Below are positions 43,766-52,625 of a DNA stretch of 64,000 nt, in pieces. Position 1 is the first letter of the stretch. The number at the start of each line of letters is the position of its first letter. This DNA is from an uncultured Clostridia bacterium (GTDB taxonomy: Bacteria > Bacillota > Clostridia > Oscillospirales > Acutalibacteraceae), in NCBI GenBank assembly GCA_946555465.1, contig CAMNST010000003.1, forward strand, positions 128,226 to 192,225. The letters are read 5' to 3'. A program made the position numbers and the translations under genes. A model generated the notes under the pieces. The model was given only the letters and a program-made list of their open reading frames with translations. It searched no databases and had not been told where the DNA came from.

Positions 43766-43841
43766 GGGAGCATAGCTCAGCTGGGAGAGCATCTGCCTTA
43801 CAAGCAGAGGGTCACAGGTTCGAGCCCTGTTGTTCCCACCA
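43766..43841 (+). tRNA. tRNA-Val (anticodon UAC)
   Basis: A 76-nt cloverleaf with acceptor GGGAGCA / TGTTCCC, D arm GCTC..GAGC, anticodon stem TCTGC/GCAGA with loop CTTACAA (anticodon TAC), T arm ACAGG-TTCGAGC-CCTGT and encoded CCA end. A terminator follows at 43844-43878. Confidence 0.97.
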
Positions 43842-43928
43842 AGAACAGACGGTAATAAAAGTGCCGTCTGTTTTTTTATTAGTTAGAAAATAAAGCAGGG
43901 CGCGAACCTGTGACAAGCCGCTCCAAAT
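43826..43928 (+). repeat. Direct repeat copy A: tRNA-Val tail plus terminator (103 bp)
   Basis: Begins in the tRNA T arm, includes the 3' CCA end, the terminator hairpin and a stretch that is the reverse complement of the T arm (CGAACCTGTGAC). It is repeated at 43988-44090 with three mismatches and no indel. Confidence 0.9.
43844..43878 (+). terminator. Terminator of tRNA-Val
   Basis: AACAGACGG (43844-43852) pairs with CCGTCTGTT (43864-43872), followed by a run of T. A second identical copy lies 162 bp downstream. Confidence 0.85.
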
Positions 43929-43987
43929 CAGCGAGATTTGGAAGAAACAGTCCGGTGGACTGTTTCGCAGCGGGTTAGTTTCTCGGT

Positions 43988-44090
43988 CCTGTTGTTCCCA
44001 CCAAGAACAGACGGTAATAAAAGTGCCGTCTGTTTTTTTATTAGTTAGAAAATAGAGCAGGGGTCGAACCTGTGACAAGCCGCTCCAAAT
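43988..44090 (+). repeat. Direct repeat copy B of the tRNA-Val tail
   Basis: 103 bp, three mismatches to copy A. It holds only the last ~16 nt of the tRNA, so there is no second tRNA gene. The 59-bp spacer between the copies contains a 10-bp hairpin GAAACAGTCC/GGACTGTTTC. Confidence 0.9.
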
Positions 44091-44112
44091 TACAATGATT
44101 TGGAGCGGCTTG
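44076..44112 (-). terminator. Terminator after the 93-aa gene
   Basis: A 15-bp perfect stem (44076-44090 with 44098-44112, core AGCCGCTCCAAAT) just after the minus-strand stop; its left arm is part of repeat copy B. Confidence 0.75.
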
Positions 44113-44117
44113 TTTAT

Positions 44118-44399
44118 TTATTGTTTATTTTTCAGCATATGCTGCATATGTAGATAGCATTTATCGGAAAATGCGGTCAGTTCTTCCGTATAATCCAGCG
44201 CATCTCCGATTGCCATACAGAGCAGGTCGTAGTTTTTGTTGTTATACGCCTCCAGTTCAACACAGCACCCCTGCAGAACATCAAGCAGTTCTATTTTGTT
44301 TGAAAGTATCCCCAACCTGTCATTCAGTTGATTGTGCATTTTGAAAAATTCATGCAAATCTTTGCCCTCAATATCATACGAATACGTTTTTTCAGTCAT
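44118..44399 (-). CDS. Protein of unknown function, 93 aa, behind structured RNA
   Basis: Starts MTEKTYSYDIEGKDLHEFFK; predicted mostly helical, acidic, with Cys at several places (GCCVELE, DKCYLHMQ). ATG 44399 is preceded by AAGGGGGTCATAAAA, and this ribosome site directly follows the terminator of structured RNA copy 1. Thus expression may depend on readthrough past that terminator. No family recognised. An upstream ATG at 44486 would read through the RNA element and is unlikely. Confidence 0.6.
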   Translation of the reverse strand: MTEKTYSYDIEGKDLHEFFKMHNQLNDRLGILSNKIELLDVLQGCCVELEAYNNKNYDLLCMAIGDALDYTEELTAFSDKCYLHMQHMLKNKQ

Positions 44400-44419: not shown

Positions 44420-44590
44420 TAAAAAATGCGCGGCCGAAGCCGCGCATAAAAAACGCATGCTTCCACCGTCGCCAAACGAAATTCAATCAGCCAAGTACAT
44501 CTACGTATGCTGAAAAAGAGCATGCATTTTTATCAAAGATAAAAAAATACATACGCGGTGTACTAATAACTATATTGAATTTCATTTGGC
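44420..44590 (-). ncRNA. Structured pseudoknotted RNA, copy 1
   Basis: Promoter TTGACT (44626-44621), 18 bp, TATAAT (44602-44597). From the predicted +1 at 44590: P1 17 bp with one G-U (44590-44574 with 44487-44471), P2 AGTACA/TGTACT (44564-44559, 44499-44494), P3 CGTATG/CATACG (44555-44550, 44509-44504), P4 hairpin GATAAAAA/TTTTTATC (44545-44527), pseudoknot GCATGCT (44525-44519) with AGCATGC (44461-44455), then terminator ATGCGCGGC/GCCGCGCAT with UUCG loop (44447-44426) and T-run. Same design as copies 2 and 3 with compensatory changes. Could be a stand-alone sRNA or an attenuator for the 93-aa gene. Confidence 0.75.
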
Positions 44591-44643
44591 AAAAATATTA
44601 TATCATAATTCAAGTATATTAGTCAATATTACCTCCTAAAAAT

Positions 44644-44813
44644 AAAAAAATGCGCAGCCGAGACTGCGCATAAAAAACGCACACTCTCGTTTGCTGCGAC
44701 ACAAAACTAAAATACTATGCTAAAATAAGGCATAATTAACAGAGCGTGCATTTTTATACAGGAAATAAAATTGCAAGCCTTATTTTAAGCCATAATATAT
44801 AGTTTTATGTCGC
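44644..44813 (-). ncRNA. Structured pseudoknotted RNA, copy 2
   Basis: Promoter TTGACT (44849-44844), 18 bp, TATAAT (44825-44820). P1 14 bp with one G-U (44813-44800 with 44709-44696), inner stem GCTTAAAATAAGGC/GCCTTATTTTAGC with one bulge (44790-44777, 44731-44719), P4 (44770-44752), pseudoknot GCACGCTCT (44749-44741) with AGAGTGTGC (44687-44679, one G-U), terminator ATGCGCAG/CTGCGCAT (44671-44650). It is followed by AGGAGGT but no ORF of useful length; that sequence abuts the promoter of copy 1. Confidence 0.75.
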
Positions 44814-44891
44814 AAAATTATTATATCACAATTCGACTATGTTAGTCAATAAAAACAAAAAATTCCCTGACGCTGCAGAGAATTCTTTTAT

Positions 44892-45638
44892 CTATTTTAT
44901 TATTTTTACCATTTCATTTATATCTTTTGCCGAAAGGGTTTTGCCGCTGTTAAAGGCTGTGATATATTCGGCAAGTTTTTTTAGCCCGCCGCGGTTTGCG
45001 GTTATAATCGGTATGTCTTCCGGCATATTTTCAACAGATACCTGTGCCGTCGGATTTGAAAAATAAACAATTCCCTGAACCCATATGTTAAATCCGCTTT
45101 TTCTTAAAATGTTTGCCAATCTGTATATATGGGTGGAAACCTGTTTTATAGGATTATAGAACTGTTTTGAATATTTTCCTCCGCCTCTTCCTGTTTTAAA
45201 CTGCGTCCAGTTGTGTGACTGTGCATTTCCTGTTATTTCTTGATTGTGGTTTTTTACTTCAATAATGAAAACACCGTTTGTGCCCACAACAATCATATCC
45301 GTTTCACTTGTTTTGCCGTTATAAGTTATCCTGGCATTTGTTATGATTCGGTAGTCATCGGAAAGACAGCGGACAAGTTGTTTGGCTGCCTTTTCGCCTG
45401 TTATACCTGAATGTATTATCTTTATCTGCCTTTTTGAAATATGCGTTATTACTGCTGCAAAACCTGTTGTTAAAGACGAACATAGGATATATGTAAAATT
45501 CAGAATGCCGTTTTTATAAAAATAAACAGCCGTAATGCTCCATATTGCGGCACTCAGCAAAATCATAACTGCCGAAAGTATAATATATTTGTATTTTTTA
45601 TTTCTGAGTGCGTTTGAGCCTTTGTATAGTTTTGCCAT
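44892..45638 (-). CDS. NERD-domain membrane protein
   Basis: A 248-aa protein. Two membrane helices at the N-terminus (~18-40, 48-65) are followed by a nuclease-related NERD domain: GEKAAKQLVRCLSDDY, then TDMIVVGTNGVFIIEVKNHN, where Asp, Glu and Lys correspond to the predicted nuclease core. The C-terminal ~60 residues are extra. Family members are predicted DNA-processing nucleases, but activity is mostly unproven. ATG 45638 with AGGAG. It lies next to the tandem RNAs and the duplicated tRNA tail. Confidence 0.82.
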   Translation of the reverse strand: MAKLYKGSNALRNKKYKYIILSAVMILLSAAIWSITAVYFYKNGILNFTYILCSSLTTGFAAVITHISKRQIKIIHSGITGEKAAKQLVRCLSDDYRIITNARITYNGKTSETDMIVVGTNGVFIIEVKNHNQEITGNAQSHNWTQFKTGRGGGKYSKQFYNPIKQVSTHIYRLANILRKSGFNIWVQGIVYFSNPTAQVSVENMPEDIPIITANRGGLKKLAEYITAFNSGKTLSAKDINEMVKIIK

Positions 45639-45760
45639 TTATATCAACTCCTGTTTTTATTATAATAAGTATGTGTATAATGTCAAATTGTTCAATGTTC
45701 TTGACAATTATTTTTTATTATGTTTTAATGATTTAAAGATGATATTTAGGAGGGTTTTCC

Positions 45761-46195
45761 TTGAAAAGAATTTTAACATACGGCACATTTGATTTGCTCC
45801 ATTACGGTCACATCCGTCTTCTTCAAAGGGCAAAGGCAATGGGCGATTATCTTGTTGTTGCTTTGTCAACTGATGAATTTAATGCCGGCAAAGGCAAAAG
45901 AGCATATCATACGTATGAAACAAGAAAGAAAATGCTTGAGGCAATAAGATATGTTGACCTTGTAATTCCCGAAAACTGCTGGGAGCAGAAAATTGATGAT
46001 GTTAAAGAATATCATATAGACACGGTTGTTATGGGCGGCGACTGGGCAGGCAGCGATAAGTTTGATTATCTGAAAGATTACTGCGAACTTGTTTTTCTTG
46101 ACAGAACACCCGGTGTTTCAACAACAATGATAAAAAAAGACCTTGGTCTTAAAGAAGCAGTCAATGGTGTTGATCAACTTCCCGATGAAAAATAG
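45761..46195 (+). CDS. tagD: Glycerol-3-phosphate cytidylyltransferase-like protein
   Basis: A 144-aa nucleotidyltransferase that in the TagD family makes CDP-glycerol for teichoic acids. Seen: ILTYGTFDLLHYGHIRLLQR with HXGH, VVMGGDW and RTPGVSTTMIKK. Start is TTG at 45761 with AGGAGGG 6 nt before. It is slightly longer than TagD (~130 aa) by a C-terminal extension. No other teichoic acid genes nearby, so the product may be used in another CDP-linked pathway. Confidence 0.88.
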   Translation: MKRILTYGTFDLLHYGHIRLLQRAKAMGDYLVVALSTDEFNAGKGKRAYHTYETRKKMLEAIRYVDLVIPENCWEQKIDDVKEYHIDTVVMGGDWAGSDKFDYLKDYCELVFLDRTPGVSTTMIKKDLGLKEAVNGVDQLPDEK

Positions 46196-46211
46196 ATATT
46201 AAAATGGTTTT

Positions 46212-46245
46212 GGATAATTGCTCCCGGACGGCAATTATCCTTTTT
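46212..46245 (+). terminator. Terminator of tagD
   Basis: GGATAATTGC (46212-46221) pairs perfectly with GCAATTATCC (46231-46240), followed by six T. Confidence 0.9.
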
Positions 46246-46293
46246 TATTTATTTTGTTTTGCAAAATAAATGATAATTAAAAAATATCAATAA

Positions 46294-46482
46294 TGTTTCA
46301 CGCTGTTTTGTAACCGTTTTTATTGTTGAATTGTTGCGGAAAATGAAGATTTTACCCGTGAAACAGACAGATGTCTATTTCTCTATATATACATATTCTT
46401 GAGGTAGAATTAAATAAAAAATACAATATATTGTGTTTTTTATTCAATTTCTATTGACAGAACACAATTAATTTGTTATTAT
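46294..46482 (+). promoter_or_regulatory. nrdD control region
   Basis: A 345-bp gap. It holds a distant inverted repeat TGTTTCACG/CGTGAAACA (46294-46302, 46357-46365), an NrdR-box-like ATACAATATATTGTGT (46421-46436; fits the acaCwAtATaTwGtgt pattern) and a promoter TTGACA (46454-46459), 17 bp, TATTAT (46477-46482). A weaker second NrdR-like site lies between -35 and -10, centred ~41 bp from the first. Control by the repressor NrdR is likely. Confidence 0.55.
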
Positions 46483-46540
46483 TAATCCAGTCGCTTATAA
46501 ACGTGTAACTATTTTGTAACATTTTCGCGGGGTAAAAGAA

Positions 46541-48739
46541 ATGAAAATTATTAAGAGAAACGGTGCGGAAGTTGATTTTGATATAAACAAGATTATCGTT
46601 GCTGTATCAAAGGCAAATGCTGCCTGTAAAAAAGAAGAACTGACACAAAGCCAGATTAACGAAATTGCCGAATATGTTGAGTTTAAAATTTCAAAAGCAA
46701 GCAGATCGCTTTCGGTTGAAGAAATTCAGGATATCGTTGAAAACCAGATTATGGCACAGGGTGCATTTGATGTTGCCAGATTATATGTAAAATACCGTTA
46801 TAACCGTTCTCTTATCAGAAAGGCGAATACTACGGATAATCAGATTCTTTCTCTTATTGAATGCAATAACGAAGAGGTTAAACAGGAAAATTCAAATAAA
46901 AATCCAACAGTAAACTCCGTTCAGCGTGATTATATGGCAGGCGAGGTTTCAAAGGATATTACAAAAAGAATTCTTCTTCCGCAGGATATTGTTGATGCAC
47001 ATGAACAGGGTCTTATCCATTTTCATGATGCTGACTATTTTGCCCAGCATATGCACAACTGCGATCTTGTGAATCTTGAAGATATGCTTCAGAACGGAAC
47101 GGTTATTTCAGAAACAATGATTGAAAAACCGCATTCTTTCTCAACCGCCTGCAACATTGCAACCCAGATTATTGCACAGGTTGCGTCAAGCCAGTACGGC
47201 GGCCAGTCCATTTCTCTTGCGCATCTTGCTCCTTTTGTACAGATCAGCAGAGAAAAAATCCGCAGGGAAGTTAAAAATGAATCTGAACAACTTGAAATAA
47301 GCATGACAGAAGATCAGATAACAAAACTTACCGAAAAGAGACTTCGTGAAGAAGTTTCCCGCGGTGTTCAGACAATTCAGTATCAGGTTGTAACTCTGTT
47401 AACAACGAACGGACAGGCTCCTTTCGTTACTGTGTTTATGTATCTTAATGAGGCAAAGAGCGAACAGGAGAAAAAAGACCTTGCCCTTATTATTGAAGAA
47501 ACGCTTAAGCAGAGAATTAAAGGCGTAAAAAACGAGAGCGGCGTGTGGATTACACCTGCATTTCCTAAACTTATCTATGTTCTTGAAGAAGATAACATCA
47601 GTGACGAGTCACCGTATTTTTATCTTACCGAACTTGCAGCAAGATGCACTGCAAAAAGAATGGTTCCCGATTATATCAGTGAAAAGGTTATGCTTGAACT
47701 CAAAGGCGATGTATACACCTGTATGGGCTGCCGCAGTTTTCTTACACCGGACAGATTTACAAAAGAAAACATCGGCAATGTTGCCAATGCCAAAAATTAT
47801 GAAGAGGGCAAGCGCAAGTATTACGGCAGATTCAATCAGGGCGTGGTTACCATTAACCTTGTTGATGTTGCCTGCTCTTCAGGCGGAGATATGACCAAGT
47901 TCTGGAAAATATTTGATGAACGCCTTGACCTTTGCCACAGAGCACTCCAGTGCCGTCACAACAGACTGAAAGGCACAAAGAGCGATGCTGCACCTATTCT
48001 TTGGCAGCACGGCGCTCTTGCAAGACTCAAGAAGGGTGAAACAATAGATAAACTTCTTTTTAACGGTTATTCAACCATTTCTCTTGGTTATGCAGGCCTT
48101 TATGAATGCACAAAGTATATGACCGGAAAATCGCATACAGATGAAGCGGGCAAACCGTTTGCTCTTTCTGTAATGCAGTATATGAATGATGCCTGCTCAA
48201 AGTGGAAGGCTGAAGAGAATATTGATTACAGTATTTACGGTACTCCGCTTGAGTCAACTACATATAAATTTGCAAAATGTCTTCAGAACCGTTTCGGCAA
48301 AATTGAAGGCGTTACAGATAAAAACTATATCACAAACTCTTATCATGTTCATGTTGCGGAAGAAATTGACGCATTTACAAAACTTAAATTTGAGTCGGAA
48401 TTTCAGGCTCTGTCACCGGGCGGTGCTATTTCTTATGTAGAAGTTCCGAATATGCAGAACAATATCCCTGCCGTTATTCAGATTATGCGTTATATTTATG
48501 ATAATATTATGTATGCAGAACTCAATACAAAGAGTGATTTCTGCCAGTGCTGTGAATATGACGGTGAAATTCAGATTGTTGAAAATGAGCATGGCAAACT
48601 TGTCTGGAGATGCCCTAAATGCGGCAATGAAGATCAGGATAAGATGAACGTTGCACGCAGAACCTGCGGTTATATCGGAACCCAGTTCTGGAATCAGGGT
48701 AGAACCCAGGAAATTAAAGAAAGAGTATTGCACTTATAA
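46541..48739 (+). CDS. nrdD: Anaerobic ribonucleoside-triphosphate reductase (class III)
   Basis: A 732-aa glycyl-radical enzyme that reduces NTPs to dNTPs without oxygen. N-terminal ATP-cone (~1-95, KIIKRNGAEVDFDINKIIVA). Body includes HNCDLVNLEDML and the cysteine in STACNIATQI. C-terminal zinc site CQCCEYDG and CPKCGNED, then the glycyl-radical motif RRTCGYIG (~residue 712). Normal length. ATG 46541 with GGGGTAAAAG. Paired with nrdG. Confidence 0.96.
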   Translation: MKIIKRNGAEVDFDINKIIVAVSKANAACKKEELTQSQINEIAEYVEFKISKASRSLSVEEIQDIVENQIMAQGAFDVARLYVKYRYNRSLIRKANTTDNQILSLIECNNEEVKQENSNKNPTVNSVQRDYMAGEVSKDITKRILLPQDIVDAHEQGLIHFHDADYFAQHMHNCDLVNLEDMLQNGTVISETMIEKPHSFSTACNIATQIIAQVASSQYGGQSISLAHLAPFVQISREKIRREVKNESEQLEISMTEDQITKLTEKRLREEVSRGVQTIQYQVVTLLTTNGQAPFVTVFMYLNEAKSEQEKKDLALIIEETLKQRIKGVKNESGVWITPAFPKLIYVLEEDNISDESPYFYLTELAARCTAKRMVPDYISEKVMLELKGDVYTCMGCRSFLTPDRFTKENIGNVANAKNYEEGKRKYYGRFNQGVVTINLVDVACSSGGDMTKFWKIFDERLDLCHRALQCRHNRLKGTKSDAAPILWQHGALARLKKGETIDKLLFNGYSTISLGYAGLYECTKYMTGKSHTDEAGKPFALSVMQYMNDACSKWKAEENIDYSIYGTPLESTTYKFAKCLQNRFGKIEGVTDKNYITNSYHVHVAEEIDAFTKLKFESEFQALSPGGAISYVEVPNMQNNIPAVIQIMRYIYDNIMYAELNTKSDFCQCCEYDGEIQIVENEHGKLVWRCPKCGNEDQDKMNVARRTCGYIGTQFWNQGRTQEIKERVLHL

Positions 48740-48747
48740 TTATAAAA

Positions 48748-48772
48748 TAGGCTGTCTCTCGGGGCAGCCTTT
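48748..48772 (+). terminator. Weak hairpin between nrdD and nrdG
   Basis: AGGCTG (48748-48753) pairs with CAGCCT (48764-48769), followed by TTTT. Probably a partial terminator lowering nrdG. Confidence 0.6.
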
Positions 48773-48802
48773 TGCCATATGAATAAATTACGGAGAAAAT
48801 TT

Positions 48803-49327
48803 ATGAATTACGGAGAAATTAAAATCAACGATATTGCAAACGGAGAGGGTGTAAGAACATCACTTTTTGTTTCCGGCTGCAGACACTGCTGTAAAAACTG
48901 CTTCAATGCGCAGACATGGGATTTTGCTTACGGCAAACCTTTTACCGAAGAGACGATGACACAGATTTTTAAAGACTGTTCGCCGGAGTGGATAAACGGG
49001 CTTTCCATTTTGGGCGGAGAACCCTTTGAACCTGAAAATCAGAAAGTTCTTCTTCCGTTTCTCATTATGTTCAGAGACCGTTTTCCTCAAAAAACAGTGT
49101 GGTGTTATTCGGGATTCACAATAGAAGAAATTGTCGGAACAAAAAAGTCAAGGGCAGATACCGAAATAAGCAAAGAAATGCTTTCTTTGATTGATGTTCT
49201 TGTTGACGGAAGATTTGTTGAGGAAGAGAAAGATATTTCTCTTGTTTTCCGCGGTTCGGCTAATCAGAGAGTGATTGACGTAAAAAAAACAATACAGCAA
49301 AAAGAGATTGTTTTGTATCTTGAATAG
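48803..49327 (+). CDS. nrdG: Anaerobic ribonucleotide reductase activating protein
   Basis: A 174-aa radical SAM enzyme that installs the glycyl radical on NrdD. Seen: NDIANGEGVRTSLFVSGC and CRHCCKNCFNAQTW (CX3CX2C), SILGGEPFEPEN, VWCYSGFTIEEI and VDGRFVEEEKD. ATG 48803 with GGAG is preferred to the ATG at 48779. The ribosome-site region (AATTACGGAGAAA) is repeated just inside the gene. Confidence 0.94.
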   Translation: MNYGEIKINDIANGEGVRTSLFVSGCRHCCKNCFNAQTWDFAYGKPFTEETMTQIFKDCSPEWINGLSILGGEPFEPENQKVLLPFLIMFRDRFPQKTVWCYSGFTIEEIVGTKKSRADTEISKEMLSLIDVLVDGRFVEEEKDISLVFRGSANQRVIDVKKTIQQKEIVLYLE

Positions 49328-49485
49328 CAGATTGTTAAAATTTTGACTATATCAAATTGCCATATTATGTATGTTTTTGTATAAAGTGTAAAATTTACAA
49401 TTTTTTCTTGATTATCGGGGACAAACAGTATAAAATAATACTGCATAAAAGCAAATTATTAAATATTTTTCGGAGGTAAATTCCA

Positions 49486-50499
49486 ATGGTAAAAGTTGCT
49501 ATTAATGGTTTCGGCCGTATCGGTCGTCTTGCTTTCCGCCAGATGTTCGGTGCAGAAGGCTACGAAGTAGTTGCTATCAACGATCTTACAAGCCCTAAGA
49601 TGCTTGCTCATCTTCTTAAGTATGATTCATCACAGGGCAAGTATGCTCTTGCTGATACAGTTTCTGCTACTGATGATTCAATCATCGTAGACGGTAAAGA
49701 AATCAAAATCTACGCTAAGGCTGATGCTTCTGAACTTCCTTGGGGCGAACTTGGTGTTGACGTTGTTCTTGAATGCACAGGTTTCTATTGTTCAAAAGAA
49801 AAGGCTTCTGCTCACGTAAAGGCCGGTGCTCGTAAAGTTGTTATTTCTGCTCCTGCAGGAAACGATCTTCCAACAATCGTTTACAATGTAAACCACGAAG
49901 AATTAAAGCCAGAAGATACTGTTATTTCTGCTGCTTCCTGCACAACTAACTGTCTTGCTCCTATGGCTAAGGCCCTTAACGATTATGCAGAAATCCAGAG
50001 CGGTATTATGTGCACAATCCACGCTTACACAGGCGATCAGATGACTCTTGACGGACCTCAGAGAAAAGGTGACCTTCGCCGTTCACGTGCTGCTGCAGTT
50101 AATATTGTTCCTAACTCAACAGGTGCTGCAAAGGCAATCGGTCTTGTAATTCCTGAACTCAACGGCAAACTTATCGGTTCTGCACAGAGAGTTCCAACCC
50201 CAACAGGTTCAACAACAATCCTTACTGCTGTAGTTAAGGGCGAAGATGTTACTGTTGAAAAAATCAACGCTGCTATGAAGGCTGCTGCAACTGAATCATT
50301 CGGTTACAACACTGATGAAATCGTTTCTTCAGATATCGTTGGTATGAGATTCGGCTCACTCTTTGATGCTACTCAGACAATGGTTCTTCCTATCGGCGAA
50401 GGCCTCTATGAAGTTCAGGTTGTTTCATGGTATGATAACGAAAATTCATACACATCACAGATGGTTAGAACAATCAAGTATTTCTCAGAACTTGGCTAA
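49486..50499 (+). CDS. gap: Glyceraldehyde-3-phosphate dehydrogenase
   Basis: A 337-aa glycolytic enzyme. Seen: [37 protein letters not shown] with catalytic Cys, [33 protein letters not shown] and [16 protein letters not shown]. Asp in AINDLTS suggests NAD use. Codon choice differs from neighbours (many GCT, AAC, GGC/GGT), as expected for a highly expressed gene. ATG 49486 with CGGAGGTAAATTCC. Followed by a terminator. Confidence 0.97.
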
Positions 50500-50515
50500 T
50501 ATATCATTAAAAAGG

Positions 50516-50546
50516 AAAATCCCGACCGTTAAGGCCGGGATTTTTT
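50516..50546 (+). terminator. Terminator of gap
   Basis: ATCCCGACC (50519-50527) pairs with GGCCGGGAT (50533-50541; one mismatch), followed by six T. It sits beside the convergent LytTR gene stop. Confidence 0.85.
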
Positions 50547-51246
50547 ATTTATTGCTCAGCAGTTCAAAAAATTTCTGCTTAAATTCCGCTCTTTTTGAAT
50601 AGGCAATAGGAATATCGTATTTCTCATCAAGTATGATTCGACCGCGGTCGTAATATGTAATATAGTTGGTATTTATAATAAAACTTTTATGCGGAAATTC
50701 AAAATAGGATTTATTGAGTTTATCATGCCAGAATTTTATGCTTTCTTTTGAAGTATATTTATTCTTTTTGGTAACAACCATTGTTTTTCTTCCGCAAATT
50801 TCAATGTAAATAATATCCGTGCAGTTAACAGTGGCAAGCCCTTTGGCTTCATCGTACAGATAAAATTTGATTTCGGCATTATCTATTTTTTCTATTGCAA
50901 AATCAAGGCCTCTGAAAAATCTGTCACTTTCAATCGGTTTGGTAAAAAAGCGTATAACGCCCAAGTCAAGCGCATCATCAAGATAACGGTCGTATTCGGT
51001 TACATATATTAATGCGGTGCCGGGCTTTGTTTTCTGAAGTTCCTTGCCTATTTCAATGCCGTTTATTTCGTCAACTTCAATACCGAGAATAGCAATATCA
51101 AAACTTTTGCTGCTGCTTAAAATATCGGTGCTGTTGCTGAACTTGAATAATTCCAGGTATAAATTATGCTGCGAAAAATATTGATTTAAGTGCCTTTCAA
51201 TATCTTCAATACATTCCTCTTCTTTATCGCATATTGCTATTTTCAA
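50545..51246 (-). CDS. LytTR response-regulator-like protein lacking the phosphoacceptor Asp
   Basis: A 233-aa protein starting at TTG 51246 (GGGGAGA 6 nt before); the in-frame ATG at 51267 has no ribosome site. Residues ~1-120 look like a receiver domain with the acidic CDKEEE, Thr in YVTEYDRYL and Lys in FFTKPIE. At the phosphorylation site, FDIAILGIEVDEINGIEIG has Gly where LytTR/AgrA regulators have Asp (FLDI). Residues ~130-233 are a LytTR DNA-binding domain (DIIYIEICGRKTMVVT, FPHKSFIINTNYI). No kinase gene is adjacent. Confidence 0.85.
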   Translation of the reverse strand: MKIAICDKEEECIEDIERHLNQYFSQHNLYLELFKFSNSTDILSSSKSFDIAILGIEVDEINGIEIGKELQKTKPGTALIYVTEYDRYLDDALDLGVIRFFTKPIESDRFFRGLDFAIEKIDNAEIKFYLYDEAKGLATVNCTDIIYIEICGRKTMVVTKKNKYTSKESIKFWHDKLNKSYFEFPHKSFIINTNYITYYDRGRIILDEKYDIPIAYSKRAEFKQKFFELLSNK

Positions 51247-51420
51247 AATGATATCTCCCCAACACATAATTGTTAATACGCAAATATGTATAAATTCTAA
51301 CTGTGATTATTATCATATAGTATTTTAGTTGAAAAAAAACGCGGAAAATGTCAAAAATACCCATATTATGTGAAATTGTGATATAGTAATTCACTTTAAT
51401 GATTTCTTGCCGAAAAATAA

Positions 51421-51459
51421 AAAAATCATGGTCAATTTGGTTTGTTGACCATGATTTTT
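51421..51459 (-). terminator. Terminator of the carboxypeptidase gene
   Basis: AAAAATCATGGTCAA (51421-51435) pairs perfectly with TTGACCATGATTTTT (51445-51459), 16 bp after the minus-strand stop. Confidence 0.88.
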
Positions 51460-51475
51460 TATATCTGCTTTTTAT

Positions 51476-52228
51476 TTAACTGTTTAAATATTCTTCAAGG
51501 CATATTTTTTTATCATAAATTTTTTTGGCCGCCTCTTTGCCCACATAACGGTAATGCCACGGTTCGTAACTTATTCCTGTTATTTCACTTTTATCATTGG
51601 GATATCGCAGAACAAAGCCATATTTCCAACTGTTACTTAAAAGCCATTTCTGAACAGGTGTATCTTCCTGTTTTTCATCAAGAAGTTGATATGAAACATC
51701 AACGATATCAAGCGCCAATCCCAACTGATGCTCGCTTGTTCCCGGTATTGCCACAAGTTCTCCGGCCGCCTTTTTTGCATCCTCCTGTGAATAACCGTAT
51801 GAAAGATACCGGTCAACTTTGTTCTTGAAAAGTTCTTCCTGCTTTTCTCTTGTGCGGTATGAAGAACATATAAGCGGGTTGAGCCCTTCTGCTCTGCAGT
51901 CATCCATCATATCTTGTAAATCGGTATATGCTCTTTCGTCAATTCCGTGCCCGTTATCAAGATATTTTATAGTCGGATTATAGTTTTCAGGCAGCGAATG
52001 CCACGGATTAACCAGCATCAGATTCCACTGCGTTTTGTCGATTTCGGGTTTTTCTGTTGTGGTATTCTGTGTGGTTTGCAAATCGGCAGATGTGTGCTCC
52101 TGTTGTTTTTCCGAATCATCTTTCAGAATGCCGGTAAGTACGCATATTACAACAAGAATAAACACAACCCATGCGAGAGTGCACAGTTTTATTATTTTAT
52201 TTTTTTGGTTTATTCCGTGGTCATTCAT
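51476..52228 (-). CDS. D-alanyl-D-alanine carboxypeptidase, VanY-type (M15B)
   Basis: A 250-aa membrane-anchored metallopeptidase that trims D-Ala from peptidoglycan stem peptides. One N-terminal helix (~14-36), an outside linker rich in Ser/Thr/Glu, then the VanY domain with ICSSYRTREKQEELF, PGTSEHQLGLALDI (SXHXXGXAXD, zinc His and Asp) and YEPWHYRYVG (EXWH). ATG 52228 has AGAGGA upstream; an in-frame ATG at 52282 lacks one. Housekeeping role more likely than glycopeptide resistance because no van ligase genes are near. Confidence 0.9.
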   Translation of the reverse strand: MNDHGINQKNKIIKLCTLAWVVFILVVICVLTGILKDDSEKQQEHTSADLQTTQNTTTEKPEIDKTQWNLMLVNPWHSLPENYNPTIKYLDNGHGIDERAYTDLQDMMDDCRAEGLNPLICSSYRTREKQEELFKNKVDRYLSYGYSQEDAKKAAGELVAIPGTSEHQLGLALDIVDVSYQLLDEKQEDTPVQKWLLSNSWKYGFVLRYPNDKSEITGISYEPWHYRYVGKEAAKKIYDKKICLEEYLNS

Positions 52229-52324
52229 AAACTGAAAAATCCTCTTTAATATTTTTTTGAACAGATTTAACCGAACATACAAAAATACTATTTGCTTAAG
52301 ATTTTGAATTATACAGTTTTTATG

Positions 52325-52353
52325 TTGACTAATATTTCTTATTGTAATATAAT
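52325..52353 (+). promoter_or_regulatory. Promoter of structured RNA copy 3
   Basis: TTGACT (52325-52330), 17-bp spacer, TATAAT (52348-52353), then AATTTTGC as in copy 2. The predicted +1 (52360) is the first base of stem P1. Confidence 0.8.
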
Positions 52354-52359
52354 AATTTT

Positions 52360-52517
52360 GCTACACAAATTTCATATTACTAAGTGCTGGTATGTAATTT
52401 TTTATCTTTTGATAAAAATGCATGCTCTTTTAATCATACTAACATTTAGTAGTTAATTTGTGTAGCAGCAAACGGAGCATGCGTTTTTTATGCGCGGCTT
52501 CGGCTGCGCATTTTTTA
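52360..52517 (+). ncRNA. Structured pseudoknotted RNA, copy 3
   Basis: P1 GCTACACAAATT/AATTTGTGTAGC (52360-52371, 52455-52466), P2 TACTAAGTG/CATTTAGTA (52378-52386, 52443-52451), P3 GTATG/CATAC (52390-52394, 52435-52439), P4 TTTTTATC/GATAAAAA (52399-52406, 52411-52418), pseudoknot GCATGCTC/GAGCATGC (52420-52427, 52475-52482), terminator ATGCGCGGC/GCTGCGCAT with UUCG loop (52490-52511) and T-run. Linker AGCAAACG between P1 and pseudoknot equals that of copy 2. A GGGAGGTG follows, but only a 16-codon frame from a TTG. Same family as 44420-44813. Confidence 0.78.
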
Positions 52518-52593
52518 TTTTCGGGAGGTGAAAATTTGCACGGTATTATTACACCGCATTGTTTCAACTGTTGCCAAATCGGATAATAAACAA

Positions 52594-52625
52594 AAAACTG
52601 TCTCGGCAAAAACCGGGACAGTTTT
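52594..52625 (-). terminator. Terminator of the HTH-DUF4097 gene
   Basis: AAAACTGTCTCGG (52594-52606) pairs with CCGGGACAGTTTT (52613-52625; one T-G), 16 bp after the minus-strand stop. Confidence 0.85.

Follow-up and report, generated by a model that had tools for sequence, protein, structure and literature searches.

An Apparently Uncatalogued Family of Switch-Like, Pseudoknotted Leader RNAs in Gut Clostridia

INTRODUCTION

Pseudoknotted riboswitches that attenuate transcription, such as the preQ1 riboswitches, lie in the 5' leader of a gene and choose between a terminator and an antiterminator. Other leaders give rise to small RNAs (sRNAs) acting in trans, for example SreA and SreB of Listeria and the ANTAR-dependent EutX, and the type III antitoxin RNAs (ToxI and its kin) are short tandem repeats under one promoter. 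Here, we describe an RNA that occurs three times in a stretch of 64,000 nucleotides (nt), hereafter the window, from an uncultured bacterium of the Clostridia (Oscillospirales, Acutalibacteraceae; assembly GCA_946555465.1, contig CAMNST010000003.1, positions 128,226 to 192,225). These copies belong to a large and apparently uncatalogued family of switch-like RNAs in many gut Clostridia. The reading that we favor, with a probability of about 0.72, is that of a transcription attenuator, off when the pseudoknot forms and on when an antiterminator forms; the RNA would then be a cis-acting, riboswitch-like 5' leader serving many different genes in Clostridia.

By mechanism the RNA resembles the attenuating riboswitches with pseudoknots, since a 5' leader, a pseudoknot and a putative choice between terminator and antiterminator before a gene would be common to both. 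Unlike the preQ1-type switches, the family has a rod of variable stems that begins at +1, many copies per genome, diverse surface-protein genes downstream, antisense tails, and no match in Rfam. As with SreA/SreB and EutX, the terminated leader may act on other transcripts, although the candidate trans-acting part is here a tail that follows the terminator and is complementary to sister leaders in the antisense direction. With ToxI and its kin the family shares a pseudoknotted RNA and a terminator before a small gene, but it departs from them in its partner genes, its size and its one promoter per copy.

THREE COPIES OF ONE RNA IN THE WINDOW

A first-pass annotation had claimed three copies with a common promoter, start and terminator, and they are indeed found where it placed them, at 44590-44427 and 44813-44651 on the minus strand and at 52360-52510 on the plus strand, with U tracts beyond. 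All three have the promoter TTGACT, a 17-18 nt spacer and TATAAT, the first base of stem P1 stands 6 nt past the -10 box, and each copy ends in a terminator hairpin followed by a U tract. The sequence of P1 differs among the copies and yet is fully paired in each, with 17, 14, and 12 perfect base pairs (bp) in copies 1, 2, and 3. The pseudoknot letters given earlier for copies 2 and 3 are right, but the length was understated because the U run takes part as well; in copy 3, the apical-loop strand AAAAAUGCAUGCUC pairs with GAGCAUGCGUUUUU, U run included. The promoters and the parts of the predicted transcripts are as follows.

44621..44626, minus strand: copy 1 promoter, -35 box TTGACT
44597..44602, minus strand: copy 1 promoter, -10 box TATAAT (spacer 18; +1 after 6 nt)
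44427..44590, minus strand: copy 1 leader RNA, from +1 to the end of the terminator hairpin
44574..44590, minus strand: copy 1 P1 5' strand (17 bp with 44471-44487)
44471..44487, minus strand: copy 1 P1 3' strand
44517..44531, minus strand: copy 1 apical-loop strand AAAAATGCATGCTCT, the pseudoknot 5' strand, whose A run doubles as the P3 3' side
44464..44470, minus strand: copy 1 linker GACGGTG, class A type
44448..44463, minus strand: copy 1 pseudoknot 3' strand and U run, also the candidate antiterminator strand
44427..44447, minus strand: copy 1 terminator hairpin, then U tract
44844..44849, minus strand: copy 2 promoter, -35 box TTGACT
44820..44825, minus strand: copy 2 promoter, -10 box TATAAT
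44651..44813, minus strand: copy 2 leader RNA, tandem to copy 1 and upstream of it; class B linker AGCAAACG
44800..44813, minus strand: copy 2 P1 5' strand (14 bp with 44696-44709)
44696..44709, minus strand: copy 2 P1 3' strand
44741..44755, minus strand: copy 2 apical-loop strand AAAAATGCACGCTCT
44672..44687, minus strand: copy 2 pseudoknot 3' strand AGAGTGTGCGTTTTTT
44651..44671, minus strand: copy 2 terminator hairpin ATGCGCAGTCTCGGCTGCGCA
52325..52330, plus strand: copy 3 promoter, -35 box TTGACT
52348..52353, plus strand: copy 3 promoter, -10 box TATAAT (spacer 17)
52360..52510, plus strand: copy 3 leader RNA with class B linker AGCAAAC
52360..52371, plus strand: copy 3 P1 5' strand (12 bp with 52455-52466)
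52455..52466, plus strand: copy 3 P1 3' strand
52414..52428, plus strand: copy 3 apical-loop strand
52474..52489, plus strand: copy 3 pseudoknot 3' strand and U run
52490..52510, plus strand: copy 3 terminator hairpin

A FAMILY OUTSIDE Rfam

The three copies are real but an undercount. BLASTN of copy 3 against its own genome found 34 places at E <=1.2e-10, the next place having an E of 0.005, and a covariance model, R1, built from 29 copies with the pseudoknot left out, gave 34 matches on the extracted loci and 35 at E <0.01 genome-wide. These copies are spread over 25 loci, several of which hold two or three in tandem. The search of other Clostridia with such a model, which had been proposed as a check, shows the RNA to be widespread: under filters stricter than usual, which lose weak matches, R1 finds the RNA at E 0.01 in 63 of the 98 relatives sampled (13 of 33 by genus) and, at E 0.001, in 93 of the 391 class genomes (54 of 223 by genus), while in a phylum sample of 398, searched in the same way, the own genome is the sole match at E 1e-5. 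At least seven copies were scored in many of the 93 matching genomes, and the seven genomes listed in full carry 7 to 19 each at E 0.001. An exact-pattern scan of named genomes returned 85 stretches; among the 80 listed, the titles are mostly of uncultured Clostridia, Ruminococcaceae, Oscillospiraceae, Eubacterium, Ruminococcus, and Monoglobus, and many titles of pattern-bearing records name gut or rumen samples. It is from these titles that we take the class searched with R1 to be Clostridia. Two contigs with the pattern (L230 and L276, of JAMPEQ01) come from a genome titled Bacteroides sp., a title that is probably wrong.

In comparison with Rfam 15, the window yielded only a tRNA at or above the gathering cut-off, and 20 divergent loci yielded two tRNAs, neither of them at the RNA, so that the earlier failure to recognize a known family is borne out. 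Weak matches lay far below the cut-offs and were of unrelated types. The 6S RNA (RF00013), which is similar in its long rod shape, was rejected: its sole match in the own genome (C1:55910-56103) lies away from the copies and reaches 33.5 bits against a cut-off of 46.4. No description of the RNA was met in the literature searched, most subscription journals being outside reach, nor in passages of PMC11109978 and PMC8632094; PMC3369936 deals with ANTAR regulation. The family is absent from Rfam 15 and apparently uncatalogued, its proposed mechanism being of a known type.

STEMS, PSEUDOKNOT, AND COVARIATION

The first-pass annotation had taken compensatory change among its three copies as a sign of selected structure, and the wider set upholds this, with very strong covariation in the stems and clear covariation in the pseudoknot. 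The shuffle tests of stems, pseudoknot and antiterminator were computed on all 112 rows of an alignment of other-genome matches to R1; it is fitted to the structure of R1 and its rows are related, and its counts thus lean towards that structure. In the stems, 91.8% of the cells are paired (75.3 +/- 0.4% after shuffling), 512 cells have changed on both sides (138.8 after shuffling), and the covariation score is 0.482, compared with 0.184 in shuffles and at most 0.115 when the partner strand is slid; none of 500 shuffles reached any of the three values. The pseudoknot is 93.4% paired against 89.4%, with 60 double-change cells against 19.8 (0/500 for both), while the number of its pairs that bear a double change is not clearly above the shuffles (59/500). 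The mean duplex energy of the pseudoknot is -16.8 kcal/mol with the copy's own strand and -13.5 +/- 0.19 kcal/mol with a swapped one.

A separate parse points the same way. From 236 aligned matches, 233 were distinct and 208 remained after requiring a P1 of at least 8 bp and a recognizable U run; among the rows removed were truncated copies and matches on the antisense strand, so that selection accounts in part for the complete pairing of inner P1 in the 208-row set. One search of 100 loci left out L126, L133, L139, and L146. Among 207 copies parsed under the same limit on P1, with 137 distinct 5' strands, the first 12 positions of P1 are 99.1% paired, as compared with 37-44% when slid and 75.5% when strands are swapped between copies. 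RNAalifold, run on a MAFFT alignment, found the pseudoknot and the terminator only, and the stems were therefore entered in the model by hand. The linker and the loop are conserved and unpaired in the first 75 rows of each of two alignments. P2 does not seem to run back along P1 with a matching length, as we had supposed it might, since the two lengths are slightly anticorrelated (rho -0.19). Two kinds of variant were observed. In a distant one, from genomes such as G069 (e.g., L092:1501-1707), the loop strand AAAAAUGCAAAUUCC is seemingly held by a hairpin GAAUUUG/CAAAUUC that replaces UUUUUAUC/GAUAAAAA, as judged by eye. Other copies have no promoter and no P1 5' strand and start near P3, with upstream sequence shortly before them (L021:2953-3155, L028:3003-3163, L036, L040:3045-3181); these have probably been truncated or recombined at T-rich stretches.

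LEADER POSITION AND DOWNSTREAM GENES

The RNA had been presented as free-standing and of unrecognized topology, with a promoter and terminator of its own. This is incomplete, because in most relatives the RNA is a 5' leader whose terminator lies just before a gene, and copy 1 is likewise the leader of a gene in the window. Among open reading frames (ORFs) of at least 40 amino acids (aa) that have a Shine-Dalgarno-like motif and start no more than 170 nt away, 97 of 150 begin 20-29 nt past the hairpin; in the own genome this holds for 11 of 12, elsewhere for 86 of 138. Such a placement in the 5' untranslated region, with the terminator ahead of the start codon, is that of a cis-acting transcription attenuator. 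The downstream proteins are often exported by the look of them: by a simple hydropathy rule, 50 of 87 appear secreted, against 44 of the 348 other ORFs present at these loci (odds ratio 9.3, p 4.5e-17; proteins of at least 100 aa starting within 80 nt, outside the own genome, duplicates removed). Protein-family scans covered 125 of 134 partner ORFs, some long ones in shortened form, and found the Pfam families LRR_5 (BspA-type; 20), copper amine oxidase N-terminal domain (6), SLH (4), Big_2, NPCBM, PIN domain, and MazE-like domain (3 each). PADLOC gave eleven matches, each single-member, and PHROGs 96 families, of which the top two (22/125 and 20/125) are of unknown function. A second group of partners consists of short proteins, 29 of them distinct and of 40-99 aa.

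Two rival explanations bear on this position. A mobile repeat, akin to miniature inverted-repeat transposable elements, might be spreading promoter and terminator, as the many copies, the patchy occurrence, and the truncated copies would allow. This is very improbable given that the stems stay paired while their sequence changes, that the distance to the genes is narrow, and that no match was found in plasmid records nor, by exact pattern, in viral contigs. A phage origin was rejected too: the one record filed as phage, MT835845.1 (L228), carries ClpB-like and YicC-like bacterial genes by our reading and is therefore probably bacterial; it holds a partial RNA before a lipoprotein-like gene. 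The second rival is a type III toxin-antitoxin system, in which an RNA antitoxin precedes a small toxin gene. A pseudoknotted RNA with a terminator directly before a small gene, as in the own genome, has that layout, but elsewhere the majority of the longer partners appear to be secreted, the Pfam families most often met among partners are those of surface proteins, and the RNA does not consist of short repeats in tandem behind a single promoter. No ToxN/AbiQ-type toxin was recognized by Pfam in the 93-aa protein behind copy 1, nor among the 25 commonest of the 54 Pfam families of the 125 partner proteins, and we give this explanation hardly any credence.

A PROPOSED ATTENUATION SWITCH

In the proposed switch, P1 and P2 would make a rod that starts at +1, with hairpin P3 and a strand L (AAAAAUGCAUGCUC) in the apical loop, and a strand F (GGAGNNAUGCG plus the U run) would directly precede the terminator. 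Pairing of F with L would form the pseudoknot, leaving the terminator free, so that transcription stops; pairing of F with the 5' arm of the terminator would form an antiterminator and allow read-through into the gene. P3 shares the A run with L, hence P3 and the pseudoknot compete, and a signal favoring P3 would free F. Were L taken up by P3 or bound by a ligand, F would become available to the terminator arm and the gene would be on. A switch of the opposite sign may also be envisaged.

It is the ability of F to pair with the terminator arm as well that makes the fold read as an attenuator. Over 194 distinct pairs, F with the 5' arm of its own terminator has a mean energy of -11.6 kcal/mol, compared with -10.15 +/- 0.11 after swapping between copies (0/20) and -5.9 kcal/mol after shuffling of letters. 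When swaps are confined within a genome, the values are -11.46 against -10.40 +/- 0.19 kcal/mol (0/20; 13 genomes, 119 distinct pairs). The terminator hairpin itself has a mean of -13.0 kcal/mol, and the antiterminator, at -11.6, is close enough for a switch. In copy 2, the loop strand, F, and the terminator arm all differ from those of copies 1 and 3 and still fit one another; a similar concerted change is found in L148 and L187, and other divergent copies fit poorly.

Several observations weigh against the attenuator. In fixed columns, the antiterminator is 87.1% paired against 85.1% in shuffles, a weak excess, and its pairs with double changes are not above the shuffles (125/500). P3 is just 76.8% paired among the other-genome matches. 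Tandem copies each retain a promoter and a terminator of their own, which is unusual for a riboswitch. Finally, for 43 of the 181 copies in other genomes, no ORF of at least 40 aa with a Shine-Dalgarno-like motif was found within 170 nt; not every copy is therefore an ordinary leader, the absence of an ORF being partly due to another tandem copy that follows.

Some of these features would suit a stable sRNA acting in trans, as a decoy or regulator, with neighboring genes present incidentally or driven by other promoters. Full copies do have their own promoter and terminator, some stand in arrays (four in L055, the last before a gene; three in L058, with no ORF found behind the last), and some carry antisense tails against other copies, as described below. 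Such an sRNA leaves the narrow distance from terminator to start codon and the strong enrichment of secreted proteins unaccounted for, and has no role for the complementarity between F and the terminator; we consider it improbable and keep to the attenuator.

A SMALL PROTEIN AND ANTISENSE TAILS IN THE OWN GENOME

Thirteen of the 25 own-genome loci lead a paralogous protein of about 92 aa; twelve of these genes are complete and the thirteenth, in L023, is cut by the contig end. The member led by copy 1 is the following.

44118..44399, minus strand: 93-aa gene led by copy 1, member of the ~92-aa paralogous family

This protein, the one member scanned, belongs to no Pfam or NCBIfam family, has two weak PHROG matches, and gives a poor single-sequence structure model (predicted local distance difference test, pLDDT, 49); no relative of the family was found in a scan of genome contigs. 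It raises the possibility that the leader senses a protein, i.e., that an RNA-binding protein, perhaps this one, sits on the linker or apical loop and sets termination, the gene-less copies serving as decoys. The conserved, unpaired linker and loop and the small protein behind 13 leaders speak for this explanation. The RNA, however, is class-wide and the ~92-aa family was not found in the contig scan, which makes the latter unlikely as a general partner, and its model is of low confidence; protein sensing is thus an unlikely alternative to the attenuator, if a somewhat better one than the trans-acting sRNA. Near the gene, two direct 117-nt copies, 93% identical, lie at 43826-43942 and 43988-44104, and the first of them overlaps the 3' end of a tRNA gene (43766-43838), within which it starts. 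Between them, at 43944-43967, is a palindrome CGAAACAGTCCACCGGACTGTTTC that recurs after the ~92-aa gene of L041.

Ten further loci have no gene. They keep a Shine-Dalgarno-like sequence, as seen by eye, and carry in place of the gene a tail that is complementary to the P1 3' end, the linker, and F of leaders. The two remaining loci, L038, which leads another protein, and L040, which stops at a contig end, are not in the tail comparison. Copy 3 is the gene-less copy of the window, and its features are these.

52523..52531, plus strand: Shine-Dalgarno-like GGGAGGTGA past the copy 3 terminator, followed by merely a 16-codon frame
52555..52579, plus strand: copy 3 antisense tail, complementary to class A linker, P1 3' strand, and pseudoknot strand
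52594..52625, plus strand: second terminator-like hairpin behind the copy 3 tail (by eye), possibly common to a converging gene

Tails occur in 10 of 10 gene-less loci and 0 of 13 protein loci, with scores of 12.6-18.2 (11 tails) against 7.0-10.6, L023 having given just 108 nt for this search; among 2,400 shuffles the maximum was 13.0 and 0.17% reached 12.5. Most tails find a better fit in other copies than in the RNA that carries them, which would point to action in trans rather than in cis. The copy 3 tail, for example, scores 6.0 with its own RNA, at index 26 (counted from 0, of 34), and 17.0 with its best partner. On the same count, the own RNA stands at 28, 27, 31, 33, and 26 for five own-genome tails and at 7, 9, 13, and 20 for those of L033, L039, L028, and one of L037; over longer stretches its rank is 11 to 34. 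The linker GACAGTTGG is found in leaders of 10 of 13 protein loci and of 1 of 10 tail loci (p 0.003), and L039, the sole tail locus to have it, bears a tail against the other class. In a test of addressing, with a rough null and with two L037 tails that are near copies of each other, all 11 tails showed a gain above the mean of their null, 5 of them at p <=0.002. The tail of L033 is best on L043, and that of L036 fits copy 1 of the window jointly with two others, which suggests that some tails may address particular copies. It was also observed that the L033 tail matches an unusual P1 base of L043 (GTTTGAC), the sole such copy noticed in the own genome, as would be expected if tails address particular copies.

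The read-through product of a gene-less unit would, on these complementarities, carry an antisense tail against the linker, P1, and F of other copies, so that control by tails is probably in trans, and the pattern suggests antisense control between leaders. Some points weigh against extending this. On a stricter score, a value of 12 is reached by 14 of 205 copies (from the 208 parsed) and by 0 of 615 shuffles (maximum 11), one of the 14, L151, having a 107-codon frame behind it; a control in the sense direction also gives 14 of 205. In nine of the control cases another parsed copy follows in tandem, and L021:3435 comes after L021:3211, but four without a tandem copy score 12-13, so that tail scores of 12-13 are near background. 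At 14 or more there are nine antisense cases, six of them in the own genome, and outside it only L113, in another genome, and two copies in L224, of a third, reach this value. The wobble excess of the tails (53 G-U against 13 A-C) was obtained from lenient alignments, some of whose rows are not tails, and may reflect base composition alone; we do not count it as evidence. A full RNA network, in which dozens of paralogous attenuator leaders per genome control proteins in some cases and, in others, tails directed to subsets of sister leaders, with no protein regulator, is accordingly a tentative proposal that we hold to be rather doubtful.

CONCLUDING REMARKS

A switch-like RNA found in roughly one in four of the class genomes sampled, often in many copies and frequently ahead of genes for secreted and surface proteins, would represent an extensive and unstudied level of gene regulation in bacteria of the gut and rumen. 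In the own genome, some copies have in addition a stretch that might pair with sister copies and thereby control them. These antisense tails hint at an RNA-only wiring between leaders; should such a network exist, it would amount to a novel form of wiring.

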